The position numbers were made by a program, and so were the translations under genes. The notes under the pieces are model-generated. The model worked only from the letters and a program-made list of their open reading frames with translations. It had not been told where the DNA came from and searched no databases. Positions 1 to 15,384 of a stretch of 25,598 nucleotides of DNA are shown in pieces. The stretch comes from Alistipes sp. (GTDB lineage Bacteria; Bacteroidota; Bacteroidia; Bacteroidales; Rikenellaceae): NCBI GenBank assembly GCA_017559685.1, contig JAFYQY010000009.1, positions 1 through 25,598 on the forward strand. Direction: 5' to 3'. Numbering within the stretch: position 1 is the first letter of the stretch; every line of letters begins with the position of its first letter.

Positions 1-453
1 CTCGATATCCTCGCTAAGGCTAAGGCTCGTGGCGTTGAGTTCGTAATGTCGCCAGACGCACTCGTTTGCGACGACTTCAGCGAGAACGCAAACACTCAGT
101 CGGCTCCTGTTAAGGAGATTCCAGCAGAGTGGGAGGGTGTTGATATCGCCGAGGGTGGTAAGGAGCTCTTCCGCAAGGAGATTCTCAACTGCAAGACTAT
201 TCTCTGGAACGGCCCTGTAGGCGTATTCGAGATCAATAAGTTCTCTACTGGCTCTCGTGCTGTTGCCGAGGCTATCGCTGACGCAACTCAGCAGAATGGT
301 GCATACTCGCTCATCGGTGGTGGTGACTCTGTAGCTTGTATCAACAAGTTCGGCCTCGCTGATAAGGTATCGTATGTATCTACCGGTGGTGGTGCTCTCC
401 TCGAGTATATTGAGGGTAAGGAGTTGCCAGGTGTTGCCGCAATTCGCAAGTAA
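1..453 (+). CDS. pgk: Phosphoglycerate kinase, C-terminal part (5' truncated)
   Basis: Glycolytic enzyme that transfers phosphate between 1,3-bisphosphoglycerate and ADP in the cytoplasm. The reading frame is open from base 1, so the window holds only the last 150 residues; the ATG at position 46 is internal. The C-terminal nucleotide-binding half is recognisable: WNGPVGVFE, then [13 protein letters not shown], then the glycine-rich [19 protein letters not shown] near the end, all typical of PGK. The protein ends in the usual PGVAAI-type tail, so the 3' end is intact. A long imperfect hairpin element begins at its stop codon, and an intrinsic terminator follows. The upstream part and promoter lie outside the window. 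Confidence 0.97.
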
Positions 454-575
454 AATCGTTCTGATTGGCTCTTTTTGCACGAGAGCGTCGGACGCCAAAT
501 TTCTCACATAGGCCAACTATGCTGCGAATTTGTCGCCTAGCTTCGCACAAAAATAGCTCAATCAACTCCGATTTT
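452..575 (+). repeat. Long imperfect hairpin element, copy A (behind pgk)
   Basis: A 124-nt region folds back along almost its full length. Outer pairs are AAAATCG (452-458) with CGATTTT (569-575), TGATTG (462-467) with CAATCA (559-564), GCT (468-470) with AGC (555-557) and TTTTTG (472-477) with CAAAAA (548-553). Inner pairs include AAATT (497-501) with AATTT (527-531). The tip is CATAG (507-511), loop GCCAA, CTATG (517-521). The outermost pair uses bases of the pgk stop codon. Copy B at 10687-10796 has the same plan and the same apical sequence in the same orientation to the gene before it. Whether it acts as RNA or is a palindromic repeat cannot be told from one window. Confidence 0.75.
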
Positions 576-580
576 CAATA

Positions 581-619
581 AGAGAGAAGGTTGTACGAAT
601 ACAACCTTCTCTCTCTTTT
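581..619 (+). terminator. Intrinsic terminator behind pgk
   Basis: A perfect 15-bp stem, AGAGAGAAGGTTGTA (581-595) with TACAACCTTCTCTCT (600-614), closes on a CGAA loop and is followed by CTTTT. It lies just after the hairpin element and is oriented to stop transcription coming from pgk. Confidence 0.85.
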
Positions 620-10121: not shown

Positions 10122-10679
10122 ATGGATACTAAAACAATCATTAATGACGCAACTGCTCGTATGCAGAAGGCGGTAGATTTCTTGGAGGAGTCTTTGGCAA
10201 ACATCCGTGCAGGCAAGGCTTCGGTAAATGTTTTGAATGGCGTTTTCGTTGAGTACTACGGATCGCAGACCCCTGTTTCGGGCGTAGCGAGCGTTACCGT
10301 ACCTGATGCAAAGACCATCCTCATCCAGCCATGGGATAAGAATATGATTCGCCCAATCGAGAAGGCAATCATCGACTCGAACATCGGTCTCACTCCATCG
10401 AACAATGGCGAGAGCATCCGTCTCTCAATGCCACCTCTCACCGAGGAGCGTCGTAAGGACCTCGTAAAGCAGTCAAAGGCTGAGGCAGAGAACGCTCGTA
10501 TCTCACTCCGCAACGCACGTCGTGATGCTGTCGAGGCTTTCAAGAAGGCCGTAAAAGATGGTATGCCTGAGGATGAGGGCAAGGACGGCGAAACACAGAT
10601 TCAGAAGATTGTTGAGAAGTTCAACAAGTCTATCGATGCTTCGTTTGAGAAGAAGGAGAAGGAGATTATGACTGTCTAA
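10122..10679 (+). CDS. frr: Ribosome recycling factor
   Basis: 185 residues, the same length as the Escherichia coli protein. RRF splits the post-termination ribosome together with EF-G. The N-terminal helix has MQKAVDFLEESLANIRAGKASVN with the family's I-R-x-G-(K/R) motif; then YYGSQTPVSGVASVTVPDA, IQPWDKN, and the domain I helix LTEERRKDLVKQ and RRDAVEAFKK. It follows a G-rich spacer with three hairpins and is followed 7 nt after its stop by hairpin element copy B. No clear promoter box was found upstream, so readthrough from the tlpA-like gene is possible. Confidence 0.96.
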   Translation: MDTKTIINDATARMQKAVDFLEESLANIRAGKASVNVLNGVFVEYYGSQTPVSGVASVTVPDAKTILIQPWDKNMIRPIEKAIIDSNIGLTPSNNGESIRLSMPPLTEERRKDLVKQSKAEAENARISLRNARRDAVEAFKKAVKDGMPEDEGKDGETQIQKIVEKFNKSIDASFEKKEKEIMTV

Positions 10680-10686
10680 AATTGTA

Positions 10687-10796
10687 TAAATAAGCGGTGA
10701 ATTTTGCACCGCATTTCGATAAGCGAGTTCCTCACATACGCCGAGTATGCTGCGGACTCGCTTTCTTATTTGGCACAAAATTCCCTCGCTTATTTA
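10687..10796 (+). repeat. Long imperfect hairpin element, copy B (behind frr)
   Basis: Outer stem TAAATAAGCG (10687-10696) with CGCTTATTTA (10787-10796) is a perfect 10 bp; AATTTTG (10700-10706) pairs with CAAAATT (10776-10782); inner GCGAGT (10723-10728) pairs with ACTCGC (10756-10761); the tip is CATAC (10735-10739), loop GCCGA, GTATG (10745-10749). Compared with copy A the apical block CTCACATA-GCC-A-TATGCTGCG and the TTTTGCAC/GCACAAAA blocks are shared, while the stem bases differ and still pair. It starts 7 nt after the frr stop codon. Confidence 0.75.
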
Positions 10797-11142
10797 AACA
10801 ATTTGGGTGCTGGTTGGGTATGCTGCGGTATTAGAAAGGGTTTGTTATTGTTGCACTCACCTCTCTATTTGCACTTTTGGGTTGGTGGGACACGCTTTCT
10901 TATTTGGCACAAAATTCCCTCAATCACCTCTGATTTTATGGTGGTGTGTGGGTAGTACTCACCTCTCTATTTGCAATTTTGGGGTTTCAGTACAACCGCA
11001 ACTCCCTATACACCCTATACTCCCTATCATTTTTTAATTTTGCACTCCTCCAAACGCCCTTATCCTATCCTTTTTGGTTGCAAAACTCGGAGCGTATGAA
11101 AATTTATTTTCATAGCCTTTTGTCGAAAATGTAAAGTAAAGT
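10797..11142. other. Gene-free spacer with decayed and direct repeats
   Basis: About 350 nt with no believable gene. It contains GTATGCTGCGG (10818-10828) and a 29-nt segment at 10893-10921 identical to copy B 10759-10787, followed by CAATCACCTCTGATTTT, which resembles the right flank of copy A; together these look like a broken third element. A 29-30 nt direct repeat starting ACTCACCTCTCTATTTGCA occurs at 10855-10883 and 10957-10986 (102 nt apart). A 9-nt micro-repeat of CCCTATA lies at 11001-11028. A small hairpin, TATGAAAA (11095-11102) with TTTTCATA (11107-11114), lies before the HAD promoter. Confidence 0.65.
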
Positions 11143-12138: not shown

Positions 12139-13830
12139 ATGGACGCTCAAACTCAAAAGAGATTTAAGATTTGGCAGTGGCGCACCATCATCGCTACGAT
12201 GATTGGCTACGCCTTCTTCTACTTTGTCCGCAAGAACTTCTCATTTGCGATGCCGGGCTTGTCGGCTGAGTATGGAATATCGAATGCTTCGTTTGGTATT
12301 GTAATGACCATCGTCGGCATTGTTTACGGCTTCTCACGCTACTTTAACGGTATCTTGGCTGACCGTATGAATGCTCGCTATCATATGTCGATTGGTCTTG
12401 CACTTTGCGCTTTGGCGAGTATCGCATTTGGATTTATTCCTCATCTGCTCGGCATAGAGATTGGTAATGCTCCGCACACCCTAATCGTTGTTTTTGCCAT
12501 CTTGTTGGTGCTCAACAACATCTTCCAGGGTAGTGGCTTCCCTCCTTGCGCACGCTTGCTCTCGCACTGGATTCCACCTCAGGAGTTGGCTACAAAGCAG
12601 TCTATCTGGAACACTTCGCACTCTATCGGAGCGAGCATTTTGGCTATCCTCTGCGGATTTATTATGGCCAATATGGGTAATGATGTGAGCTCTTCGCAGA
12701 AGGATGTGGATAATATCACCAAAAACTACGTTACAACCATCTTCAAGGACGATGTTAAGAAGTCTAACGAGGCGATTGCTAAGGTTGTTAAGATTTGCGA
12801 GCCAAAGCACTTGGACGAGGGTGGTTACATTGTCGATGTAATTTGCTCGATGAAAGATGGCAAGCAGGATACTACCTCCTACACCTTCTCGAAAGAGAAC
12901 TTCTTGGCTGTAAAGTCGGCTGTAGAAGTTGTTTCCGAGAAAGAAGTTGAGGATTCCGATGAGGAGATTGCAAAGATGTGCAACATCGACAAGGCGCAAG
13001 CCAAAGCTACCCAGGCTATCATCACCCGTACCGAGCACACAGGTGCGTGGAAGTGGTCGTTCTGGATCCCTGGTTTGATTGCATTGTTTGGTGCATTGGC
13101 ACTCTTCGCAGTTTTGCGTGACACACCTAAGTCGGTGGGATTGCCTGAGCTGGAGAGCGCAAAGACCTCGTTGGATAAAGACGACGACCCTGCTGCTCGA
13201 CGTGCATACGTACGAAAGATGGTCTACAAGAACCCTATTATCTGGGTTTTGGCTTTCGCAAACTTTTTCGTTTATGTTGTTCGTTTCTCGGTGCTCGACT
13301 GGGGTCCAAAGTTCTTGACAGAGGCTTGCAATATGTCCTTTAAGGAGGCTGCCTATGCGGTTGGTGCATTCGAGATTATGGCTATTGTAGGAACACTCGT
13401 TGCAGGTTGGGCTACCGATAAATTCTTTGCAGGACGTGCTCACCGCACCTGTTTGTGGTGTATGGTTGGTGCTGGCGCTGCGATGGCAGCATTCTACCTC
13501 TTCTACCTCAATCCGGGAATGGTTCCAGGTTGGGCTTTGATTGGCGTTTTGGCTACAGCTGGTTTCTTCATCTATGGCCCGCAGGCGCTCATCGGTATCG
13601 CCGCATCGAATCAGGCAACCAAGAAGGCTGCCGCTACAGCAAATGGCTTGGTTGGTATCTTTGGTTACCTCTCGACAATCGTATCGGGTTGGGGTATCGG
13701 TAAGATTGCCGACACATTCGGTTGGAACGGTGTATTTATCGGCGTTATTGTTATGGCTATAGTCGGCATCGTGATATTTTTGGCAATCTGGGGCGCAAAG
13801 CGTGACGGATACGATAAGGCAAATTCGTAA
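12139..13830 (+). CDS. Organophosphate:phosphate antiporter (GlpT/UhpT-like MFS) with large insertion
   Basis: 563 residues, about 110 longer than E. coli GlpT. The resemblance is strong: FYFVRKNFSFAMP in TM1 (R31, equivalent to GlpT R45), GSGFPPCARLLSHW, WNTSHSIG (H161, equivalent to H165), and VYVVRFSVLDWGP (R382, equivalent to R269). These residues bind the substrate phosphate, so import of glycerol-3-phosphate or a hexose/other phosphate ester in exchange for phosphate is likely. Residues about 181-302 form a hydrophilic, charged insertion between TM5 and TM6, where GlpT has only a short link; by GlpT topology it would face the periplasm. The two EEP-fold hydrolase genes follow, 16 bp behind. 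Exact substrate unknown; UhpC-like sensing is an alternative. Confidence 0.9.
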   Translation: MDAQTQKRFKIWQWRTIIATMIGYAFFYFVRKNFSFAMPGLSAEYGISNASFGIVMTIVGIVYGFSRYFNGILADRMNARYHMSIGLALCALASIAFGFIPHLLGIEIGNAPHTLIVVFAILLVLNNIFQGSGFPPCARLLSHWIPPQELATKQSIWNTSHSIGASILAILCGFIMANMGNDVSSSQKDVDNITKNYVTTIFKDDVKKSNEAIAKVVKICEPKHLDEGGYIVDVICSMKDGKQDTTSYTFSKENFLAVKSAVEVVSEKEVEDSDEEIAKMCNIDKAQAKATQAIITRTEHTGAWKWSFWIPGLIALFGALALFAVLRDTPKSVGLPELESAKTSLDKDDDPAARRAYVRKMVYKNPIIWVLAFANFFVYVVRFSVLDWGPKFLTEACNMSFKEAAYAVGAFEIMAIVGTLVAGWATDKFFAGRAHRTCLWCMVGAGAAMAAFYLFYLNPGMVPGWALIGVLATAGFFIYGPQALIGIAASNQATKKAAATANGLVGIFGYLSTIVSGWGIGKIADTFGWNGVFIGVIVMAIVGIVIFLAIWGAKRDGYDKANS

Positions 13831-13846
13831 AAAAAAAGATAGAGTT

Positions 13847-14605
13847 ATGAAGAAGATTATTTTGGTTTTGGCGGTGTTGTTCATTGGTGCAACAACCGCA
13901 TCGGCACAGAAGGTGCGAGTAATGTCGTACAATGTGCACAACTGCATCGGTTCGGATAAGGTTAAGGATATCGACCGTTGCGCAAATGTTATCCGTGAGG
14001 TATGCCCCGATATCGTGGCTATCCAGGAGGTAGATAGTATGACTCGTCGCAACAAGCGCTATGTGCTTGGCGAGCTTGGCGAGAAGGCTGGCTACCACGC
14101 ATACTTTGGCCCAACCATCCCATACAAGGGCGGTAAGTATGGTATCGGCGTATTGTCGAGAAAGCCTGCAAAGTCGGTTGAGTTCCACCGCTTGCCTTGT
14201 CGCAAGGAGCCTCGTGGCTTGCTCGTTGTGGAGTTCGACAAGTACTACTTCCTCGCAACTCACCTCTCGCTTGTTCGTCCCGATCAGCGCACATCTACTC
14301 AAATCATCAAGGAGATTGTGTCGAAGCTCAATAAGCCTGTGTTCCTTGCTGGCGATATGAACGCACAGCCTCACTCGCCTACAATGGAGCTCTTCAAGGA
14401 GTATATGACCGTATTGACCGACGAGACAAAGTTTACCTTCCCTGCGACTGAGCCTCATGGTTGCATCGACTATGTGATGGGTGCAAATGCGCAGTTCAAG
14501 GTTAAGAAAACCGAGGTTCTCTATGGCGATATCTCGTCTGACCACCTTCCGCTCTATGTAGACGTGAAGATTTCGAAGCCAAAGAAGGCTAAGGCGAAGA
14601 AATAG
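13847..14605 (+). CDS. Secreted endonuclease/exonuclease/phosphatase (EEP) family hydrolase, paralogue 1
   Basis: 252 residues. The signal peptide ends near ASA (residue 20). The mature part is an EEP (DNase I/sphingomyelinase-like) fold: MSYNVHN (N29), IQEVD (E61, metal ligand), THLSL, GDMNAQP (D170, N172), CIDYVMG and SSDHLPLY (D232, H233). All core catalytic positions are present. The family cleaves phosphodiester or phosphomonoester bonds of nucleic acids, sphingomyelin or inositol phosphates; the substrate is not readable here. The ATG at 13847 is chosen because it opens the signal peptide; an earlier start at 13802 overlaps the transporter. A close paralogue follows 11 bp later. Confidence 0.85.
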   Translation: MKKIILVLAVLFIGATTASAQKVRVMSYNVHNCIGSDKVKDIDRCANVIREVCPDIVAIQEVDSMTRRNKRYVLGELGEKAGYHAYFGPTIPYKGGKYGIGVLSRKPAKSVEFHRLPCRKEPRGLLVVEFDKYYFLATHLSLVRPDQRTSTQIIKEIVSKLNKPVFLAGDMNAQPHSPTMELFKEYMTVLTDETKFTFPATEPHGCIDYVMGANAQFKVKKTEVLYGDISSDHLPLYVDVKISKPKKAKAKK

Positions 14606-14616
14606 TCTCAATTGTT

Positions 14617-15384
14617 ATGAAGCGACTTCTGATTTTGTTGATGTGCTGTGCTATGGGCGTATCGGCTCTCTCGGCACAGAAGGTGCGAGTGATGTCGTAC
14701 AACGTGAAGAACGGCATCGGAATGGACAAGATCAAAGATATATCTCGTTGTGCCGAGGTTATCCGTAAGGCCAAACCTGATGTGGTGGCTATCCAAGAGG
14801 TGGATAGTATGACTCGTCGCAACAAGAAGTATGTGCTTGGCGAGTTGGCCGAGAAGGCGGGTGGCTACCACGCCTACTTCGGTAAGGCTATCTCTTATCA
14901 GGGCGGTAAATATGGCGTAGGTGTATTGTCGAAGAAGCCCGCTTTGTCGGTAAAAACTTACCCTCTGCCAAACGAAAAGGAGGCTCGAGTGCTGTTGGTT
15001 GTCGAGTACGAGAAGTACTATATGCTCTGCACCCACCTCTCGGGTGTGCCGAGAAAACTCGGTCGAGGCATCCAAGTCGATATTATTCGAGATGTGGTGT
15101 CGAAGTTGGATAAACCAGCATTTATTGCGGGCGATACGAATGCACGCCCTGCGTCGGCTCCGATGATGGCGTTCAAAGAGTTCGCTACGATATTGACCGA
15201 CGAGAGCAAGATGACCGCCCCTTCGCATAAACCTGGCAAGTGCATCGACTATATTATGGGCGCAAATGGCTCGTTCAAGGTGAAGCGAGAGAAGGTGCAG
15301 TATGGCTGTCTCTATTCGGATCACCTACCTATCTATGTCGATGTCAAGATTGTAAAAACGAAGAAAACAGATAATGGCAGATAA
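14617..15384 (+). CDS. Secreted EEP family hydrolase, paralogue 2
   Basis: 255 residues with signal peptide ending near LSA (residue 20). It aligns with paralogue 1 end to end and, by eye, at well over half of positions; DNA is also near-identical in patches, such as the stretch around 14033-14056 and 14801-14824. Catalytic residues are kept: N29, E61, THLSG, D173 and N175 in GDTNARP, D235 and H236 in SDHLPIY. The two differ most in the middle region (about residues 110-160) and near 200-215, where substrate choice may have diverged. Its last 11 bases overlap the nitroreductase start. A recent tandem duplication is the simplest origin. Confidence 0.85.
   Translation: MKRLLILLMCCAMGVSALSAQKVRVMSYNVKNGIGMDKIKDISRCAEVIRKAKPDVVAIQEVDSMTRRNKKYVLGELAEKAGGYHAYFGKAISYQGGKYGVGVLSKKPALSVKTYPLPNEKEARVLLVVEYEKYYMLCTHLSGVPRKLGRGIQVDIIRDVVSKLDKPAFIAGDTNARPASAPMMAFKEFATILTDESKMTAPSHKPGKCIDYIMGANGSFKVKREKVQYGCLYSDHLPIYVDVKIVKTKKTDNGR

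Follow-up and report, generated by a model that had tools for sequence, protein, structure and literature searches.

ERIC (IRU, RU-1) is a single long hairpin of about 127 bp that lies between genes in several copies per genome, and its core was found in 5375 of 5426 E. coli genomes. The available part of one review gives its reported hosts as Enterobacteriaceae and Vibrionaceae (PMC10969869); that of another, from 2007, ascribes to it TA ends and target duplications and presents accounts of how such elements move as lacking experimental support (PMC2229807). In the available text of these two MITE reviews 'leading strand' is absent, as is 'stop codon' in this setting. Replication-oriented insertion is described for IS200/IS605, Tn7 and other insertion sequences in the accessible part of PMC5371812, and QMITE2 is described with 7-11 nt duplications and a GTAG palindrome in that of PMC5896051.

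The window analysed here, a stretch of 25,598 nucleotides from an Alistipes sp. contig, holds two members of a palindrome family that can be set beside these systems. The family is like ERIC in forming one long intergenic hairpin of similar length, several per genome, and the ERIC blocks, read in reverse complement, follow an order like that of the family (TGCGTTTGCG..TCACTTAC-TTAT-GTAAGCTCC..GCCTTCC..ACTCGAA). As to TA ends, TA or TAA stands before many copies of the family without being part of a clean terminal repeat. With IS200/IS605 and RAYT/REP elements, as far as the sources available in part describe them, the family shares an orientation that follows replication and, as we propose, a hairpin on the lagging-strand template, but it has one long hairpin rather than two end hairpins and no GTAG tag was noted. 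Like RUP, Correia/NEMIS and QMITE2, it is short, non-coding, palindromic and often in 3′ flanks, with a TNA repeat in its Modicisalibacter copies; unlike them, its core is conserved across phyla and its ends are not. Two palindromic candidate RNAs from human-microbiome Bacteroidetes, HMP_4078 (109 bp) and HMP2_4205 (132 bp), would fit in length, palindromy and host phylum, as compared by description only in the available part of PMC8040213.

No earlier description of the family was found in the literature searched, which lay mostly outside subscription papers and yielded no non-enterobacterial relative of ERIC, no stop-codon targeting and no MITEs of Alistipes. An initial sequence-only reading of the window had called these hairpins not previously known; that holds for the family as such and needs qualification where ERIC, known and probably related, is concerned, and where the PMC8040213 candidates, compared by description, might belong to it. 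We conclude that the family is real and widespread, that it is very probably a mobile DNA palindrome, and that, within the literature searched, it is new in host range, strand polarity and stop-codon placement; its mechanism we infer.

Two copies of one palindrome behind pgk and frr

The window contains two copies of one imperfect palindrome of about 125 nt (Table 1). Both begin on the base directly after a TAA stop codon (10677-10679 in the case of frr) and lie in sense orientation. The two hairpins that the sequence-only reading had placed near stop codons, in the same orientation to the gene, are present and slightly longer than it gave. As RNA, 446-580 folds to -40.8 kcal/mol (z -4.4) and 10679-10804 to -48.7 kcal/mol (z -8.4), and as DNA the copies reach z -3.9 and -6.7, with none of 200 shuffles as good in any of the four cases. 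The apical motif CTCACATA-N6..12-TATGCTGCG occurs twice against 0.00 expected by chance, and a common block of 60 nt is 70% identical; the shared fold and apical block of that reading are thereby borne out. R1, a covariance model built from 72 copies with the window copies left out, matches 447-579 at 66.6 bits (E 7.8e-16) and 10673-10805 at 59.8 bits (E 5.3e-14).

Table 1. Features of the window that bear on the two palindromes
Feature	Position	Strand	Basis
pgk, 3′ part	46..453	+	ORF; homologues in 22/26 Rikenellaceae genomes; gene name from the sequence-only reading
Element copy 1 (behind pgk)	454..573	+	base after stop TAA 451-453 to end of paired CGATT; fold and R1 match
Apical core of copy 1, CTCACATA to TATGCTGCG	503..526	+	pattern search
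TAA close behind copy 1, perhaps a 3-bp target duplication of the stop	579..581	+	read directly
Ordinary terminator-like hairpin 3′ of copy 1, AGAGAGAAGGTTGTA..TACAACCTTCTCTCTCTTTT	581..619	+	read directly
frr (185 aa)	10122..10679	+	ORF; homologues in 24/26 Rikenellaceae genomes; gene name from the sequence-only reading
Element copy 2 (behind frr)	10680..10803	+	fold and R1 match
Apical core of copy 2, CTCACATA to TATGCTGCG	10731..10754	+	pattern search
Right half of older element, begins at hairpin tip	10818..10879	+	62 nt at 95% identity with the frr element of L208, positions 71-132
Right half of further element, begins just after TATGCTGCG	10888..10937	+	similarity to L234 and L097 copies

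The terminator-like hairpin 3′ of copy 1 means that the element stands between the pgk stop codon and the putative terminator. By eye, a TAA on the right side occurs in a minority of Rikenellaceae copies, and there is no regular target duplication. The terminator-like hairpin (574-620) gave weak Rfam microRNA matches, among them let-7 (E 1.2e-4) with 30.5 bits, where the gathering score is 53.5; these matches were taken as chance. Elsewhere in the window, the adjacent ORFs 13802-14605 and 14617-15384 share direct repeats of 191, 93 and 71 nt, about 770 nt apart and 73-80% identical, and are likely a tandem gene duplication, judging from this similarity.

At the same gene ends in other Rikenellaceae, R1 finds an element at the stop codon in 5 of 25 frr loci and in 9 of 21 usable pgk loci (L248 adds one by eye), with arms that differ between genomes, while loci without an element carry other sequence at the stop, often a plain terminator-like hairpin. 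At one frr locus, L214, an antisense copy lies about 70 nt away. The older right half behind frr matches a second frr element, that of L209, at 93% over 59 nt, and the simplest history is that the ancestor had an element of the L208/L209 type at frr and that, in the lineage of the window, a new copy entered between the stop codon and the right half of the old element. Neither this right half nor the next was mentioned in the sequence-only reading. Behind the older half stands another, whose 10888-10921 is 91% identical to positions 80-113 of the L234 copies and whose 10903-10937 is 91% identical to positions 96-130 of L097. Three right-half remnants in the Rikenellaceae genome G016 likewise start at positions 71-72, the hairpin tip, suggesting that hairpin tips may be cut. 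At three frr or pgk 3′ ends of other Rikenellaceae (L218, L223, L239), palindromes with family-like arms have a G+C-rich terminator-like hairpin at their centre and no apex; these are possible chimeras of element arms and a terminator.

A family of covarying palindromes and its hosts

A scan of a genome collection for the apical motif gave at least 115 stretches, with hosts that include Alistipes, other Rikenellaceae, Legionella, Deltaproteobacteria, Nitrospirae, Balneolales, Mariprofundus, a Rickettsia endosymbiont, Modicisalibacter and Erwinia. In nearly all listed stretches, judged by eye, a palindrome of about 125 nt carries the motif at its tip, and the arms vary between hosts; two stretches with the motif and no palindrome (L027, L054) looked like chance and were dropped. 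The alignment behind R1, A1, holds 72 of 85 eligible rows; the other 13, which include L062, L070 and L107, were dropped because they nearly duplicated other rows or had odd arms. It omits L027 and L054, L104 with its runs of N, second copies of a locus, most Rikenellaceae, and the Enterobacterales loci L039 and L083, the last two because ERIC was kept as a blind test.

R1 matches 1 to 114 copies in each of the 51 genomes searched, which were chosen for holding the motif: 48 of 48 motif-holding genomes gave 1 to at least 70 copies each, and smaller searches gave at least 91 in G016 (matches among the best 150 of 454 candidates), 87 in G011, 114 in G023, 27 in G005, and 49, 6 and 1 in three others. 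The further copies in relatives for which the sequence-only reading proposed to search thus exist. The family has traits of a MITE, being short, with inverted repeats and many dispersed copies, and its length and variability suggest that it has no coding capacity. Head-to-tail arrays of two or three copies in one orientation, about 120-135 nt apart, occur at L001, L044, L081 and L101 and in G016 (C29:18511-18901). Several of the G011 contigs C17, C20, C34, C38 and C40 begin within 20 nt of an element, and the repeats probably break MAG assemblies. G023 has copies of GC 0.40-0.46 and weaker, A+T-rich matches of GC 0.31-0.37 (for example L317:5653 and L321:13062) that are perhaps a second subfamily. 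Among 2.9 million viral contigs, eight stretches carry the exact motif, five of them above 27 bits with R1, and phage were set aside as the main vehicle on that small number.

The apex is conserved and asymmetric, with a bulged C in CATAC/GTATG-C-TG and a bulged T beside a pair that switches from G-C to C-G (46 and 19 of the 72 rows of A1), although within A1 it is invariant only because loci were fetched by the CTCACATA..TATGCTGCG motif. Each arm has a conserved block, TGCGTT on the left and GCCTTG on the right, and compensated variants of the tip exist (TCATTTAC..GTAAACTCC, with Modicisalibacter and Rikenellaceae among its hosts, and TCACGTAC..GTACGCTGC). The attC sites of integrons, hairpins that are recognised by their bulges, were considered as a possible parallel.

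Across the 30 pairs of A1, 79.1% of cells pair, compared with 59.3% in shuffles; double-change cells number 467 against 197, and the covariation score is 0.390 against 0.129 in shuffles and 0.08-0.16 with slid partners, a control that leans towards the structure, as this was derived from the same sequences, yet the excess is large. The number of pairs with any double change shows no excess (23, and 22.6 in shuffles). The swaps of arm and tip that keep pairing, on which the sequence-only reading had based its case for covariation, are real and part of a much larger pattern in 72 copies from elsewhere. Selection of a fold at the RNA level would tolerate G-U and would not tolerate A-C. Over the 22 outer pairs, G-U and A-C number 92 and 92 in A1, 52 and 85 in A2, and 72 and 119 in A3, all below shuffled expectation, A2 and A3 having been fitted to the R1 structure. 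Because G-U is not favoured over A-C while the arms covary strongly, this pattern of changes indicates that the palindrome is kept as DNA and not as RNA. A hairpin can covary strongly without being an RNA, and in this one the scarcity of G-U pairs points to a DNA palindrome.

Rfam gave no match at gathering thresholds in the window nor, tRNA apart, in 18 loci. By eye, the element lacks the form of an intrinsic terminator: its outer stem is A+T-rich, and no G+C-rich stem leads straight into a run of U. Behind pgk in the window, and at L231, L246 and L253, the element is itself followed by a terminator-like hairpin.

Replication strand and stop codons

No contig of G016 mixes strands among its 91 matches on 27 contigs, drawn from the best 150 of 454 candidates. 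Third-position GC skew was taken over 20 regions of 17-20 kb that were chosen for holding matches and come from 14 contigs; its sign equals the element strand in all 20 and for 61 of 61 matches. With plain GC skew, 18 of 20 agree, and the two that do not (L285, L297) have a third-position skew of only 0.004 and 0.018. In three regions where coding is nearly strand-balanced (L284, L289, L292) the third-position skew, 0.07-0.14 in size, agrees with the element strand. By BLAST clustering, 63 of 65 full-length clusters of this genome are on the leading strand, and the two on the lagging strand are perhaps the other arm of the same palindromes.

A second Rikenellaceae genome, G011, agrees by third-position skew in 33 of 38 sampled matches and by plain skew in 32; five of its contigs have mixed strands, and one such exception (C58:148092) follows the local skew. 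On the chromosome of Legionella sp. PC1000, 21 of 26 matches lie on the leading strand of skew-defined replichores (one-sided binomial 0.0012; a 27th match is on another replicon). A free two-arc split reaches 23 of 26 there, as does the best of 300 shuffles, so the case for Legionella rests with the skew-defined replichores. G023, of the Desulfobacterales, has no strand bias (54 of 114; a two-arc split reaches 71 at best, and 69 in shuffles), and its own GC skew is indistinct. Both copies in the window lie on the strand of overall positive third-position skew (0.060), with a value of -0.002 in the middle third, where the frr copy stands. Judged by skew, then, Rikenellaceae elements lie mostly on one replication strand, following the leading strand.

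The motif scan together with G016 and G011 supplied 107 distinct Rikenellaceae copies, loci fetched by frr or pgk being left out; in 51 of them a sense ORF stop lies 40-60 nt before the core, at about the left end of the element, and in 2 the antisense equivalent occurs. With the window and the fetched loci, which favour gene ends, the counts are 61 sense and 3 antisense of 122 copies. The preference for gene 3′ ends is thus real, and sharper than the sequence-only reading held. Neither outcome by which that reading would have been refuted, a lack of further copies or many copies with no covariation and no such preference, was observed. The stops before the 51 abutting copies are TAA in 41, TAG in 9 and TGA in 1, compared with 121 TAA, 56 TAG and 16 TGA among leading-strand ORFs of G016. 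In that genome, 30 of 52 copies abut a sense stop, as counted by eye (58 of the 61 matches were entered, 6 of them without a recognisable core), while 2.4% of its non-ORF positions (753 of 31342) are situated so near, 0-3 nt, behind such a stop. Of 1050 TAAs in G016 with non-ORF sequence after them, 120 are such sense stops; copies are in excess there over other non-coding TAA, roughly 5-fold, which suggests that stop sites are also truly targeted. ORFs were called by a simple longest-ORF script, and most of the genomes are MAGs. In other hosts, 75 copies cluster at the same distances, more weakly.

Possible routes of movement and the relation to ERIC

Mobility is supported by the dispersed copies, by different arms at one gene end across genomes and by the layering of old and new copies at frr. 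Of the alternatives offered by the sequence-only reading, a palindromic mobile repeat of MITE-like kind is the one that these data favour, through dispersal, pairing at the DNA level and turnover at frr and pgk. The explanation that we consider best, and probable, is a short non-autonomous mobile palindrome of the MITE kind that enters 3′ of TAA or TAG in a manner coupled to the replication fork. As the fork passes, the element strand would be single-stranded in the lagging-strand template and would fold into a hairpin, which a mobilising enzyme would recognise through its apex; the element would then be inserted 3′ of a TAA or TAG in that strand. Insertion right after a stop codon would leave the gene intact, so that such sites could tolerate the element load. 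We lean towards replication-coupled insertion in Rikenellaceae; a single-stranded DNA intermediate is a tentative suggestion, a little short of even. IS200/IS605 elements, for comparison, have a short target at their left end.

Y1_Tnp (RAYT) was found neither in Modicisalibacter or Winslowiella nor in any of ten Rikenellaceae genomes, which have 22 to at least 70 copies each, and 24 of 50 host genomes, where MAGs may be incomplete, gave no Y1_Tnp. RAYT was rejected as mobiliser on the result for the ten Rikenellaceae genomes, which also tells against 'REP-like' in the strict sense, a label that the sequence-only reading had offered. No transposase was recognised by eye among 882 ORFs of at least 100 aa within 1.5 kb of a copy. 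A recurring neighbour gene was set aside as well, the largest families being common to at most eight loci and the biggest being the pgk and frr neighbourhood, fetched on purpose.

The family could instead be an ordinary MITE whose double-stranded DNA is moved by an IS5-family-like DDE transposase with a TNA target; this enzyme would touch the beta clamp and hence insert in one orientation, the stops being harmless TNA or TAR sites; we think this possible, if rather unlikely. Clamp-binding transposases with replication-oriented insertion are described in the accessible part of PMC5371812. In Modicisalibacter, 8 of 9 copies of the S2 group have, by eye, a 3-bp TNA repeat around GAGGGTG..CACCCTC, although a reading of the ends as AGAG..CTCT would leave just the middle base informative. 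An insertion sequence in the same genome (G003) has ends GAGCGCCTTTCAAAACC beside TTA/TAA that are, by eye, similar and not identical to the S2 end GAGGGTGTTTACAAAATG. Against this reading for the family at large, DDE_Tnp_1 (PF01609, the DDE family covered) was not found in two of six genomes searched, G007 and G004, the latter from Rikenellaceae and carrying at least 70 copies, though MAGs lose insertion sequences. It is also the core that is conserved rather than the ends, the reverse of a normal MITE, and TAG, which is not TNA, precedes 9 of the 51 stop-abutting copies. For Modicisalibacter itself a DDE enzyme is plausible, given the TNA repeats and the insertion sequence with DDE_Tnp_1 and similar ends beside TTA/TAA; its copies look like ordinary DDE insertions, and the mechanism may differ between lineages.

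Polarity and stop adjacency might also have arisen by selection alone, from random insertion followed by loss of other placements and orientations, an account that we find improbable. A stop would be a harmless site and other TAA near genes might be costly, but other non-coding sites far outnumber stop sites, given the 753 in 31342 positions of G016, and a near-symmetric palindrome offers little by which to distinguish orientations, so that 61 of 61 would be hard to reach by loss.

The other alternative of the sequence-only reading, a structured 3′-UTR RNA, here one under selection for mRNA stability or as an sRNA and spread to gene ends, did not hold up well and seems quite improbable. Sense placement directly after stops would suit it, as would a position ahead of a terminator, seen in the window and at a few other loci, and in the available part of PMC2229807 ERIC RNA in 3′ regions of Yersinia alters mRNA stability in an orientation-dependent way. 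The compensating changes are, however, Watson-Crick changes, with no tolerance of wobble beyond that of A-C, and orientation follows replication: the 22 of 52 G016 copies that are not at a sense stop keep the same polarity. Arms and presence vary between related genomes, and no Rfam family matches.

Some group II introns are copied at lagging-strand primers. An RNA-templated retroelement, its transcript copied into DNA at such primers by a reverse transcriptase in trans, would fit a sense strand that is the lagging-strand template and the right halves, three in G016 and one in the window, that start at the hairpin tip as 5′-truncated copies might, but is very improbable given the near-equal numbers of left-only and right-only remnants (18 and 17 of 147 G016 clusters) and pairing without an RNA signature.

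Whether related to ERIC or only similar to it, the family reaches about 90 copies in a genome, is fully polar with replication in one genome and stands at stops, and so offers a clean system, in which the target and strand rules can be read from sequence and the enzyme sought by co-occurrence. A wider reading, in which a trans-phylum hairpin superfamily that includes ERIC moves as single-stranded DNA at forks by a non-Y1 enzyme, with insertion at stop codons in Rikenellaceae and the same mobiliser for ERIC, is unlikely as a whole; if true, stop-codon insertion would be a 'harmless landing site' strategy.

With E. coli ERIC, R1 yielded 5.5 bits or no match, and because it did not score ERIC we built R2, from 85 matches without Enterobacterales. 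With R2, ERIC is the best match, on the expected strand, in 8 of 8 ERIC loci, and is in register in the three alignments printed; the eight loci are relatives, so that the result counts for little more than one observation. At 11.5-21.3 bits (E 0.0033 to 2.2) these matches score weakly, and the one in L305 extends over 22 nt only. On these comparisons, homology of the family with ERIC is moderately probable. Elements of Winslowiella and Erwinia give good scores and may be intermediates to ERIC.
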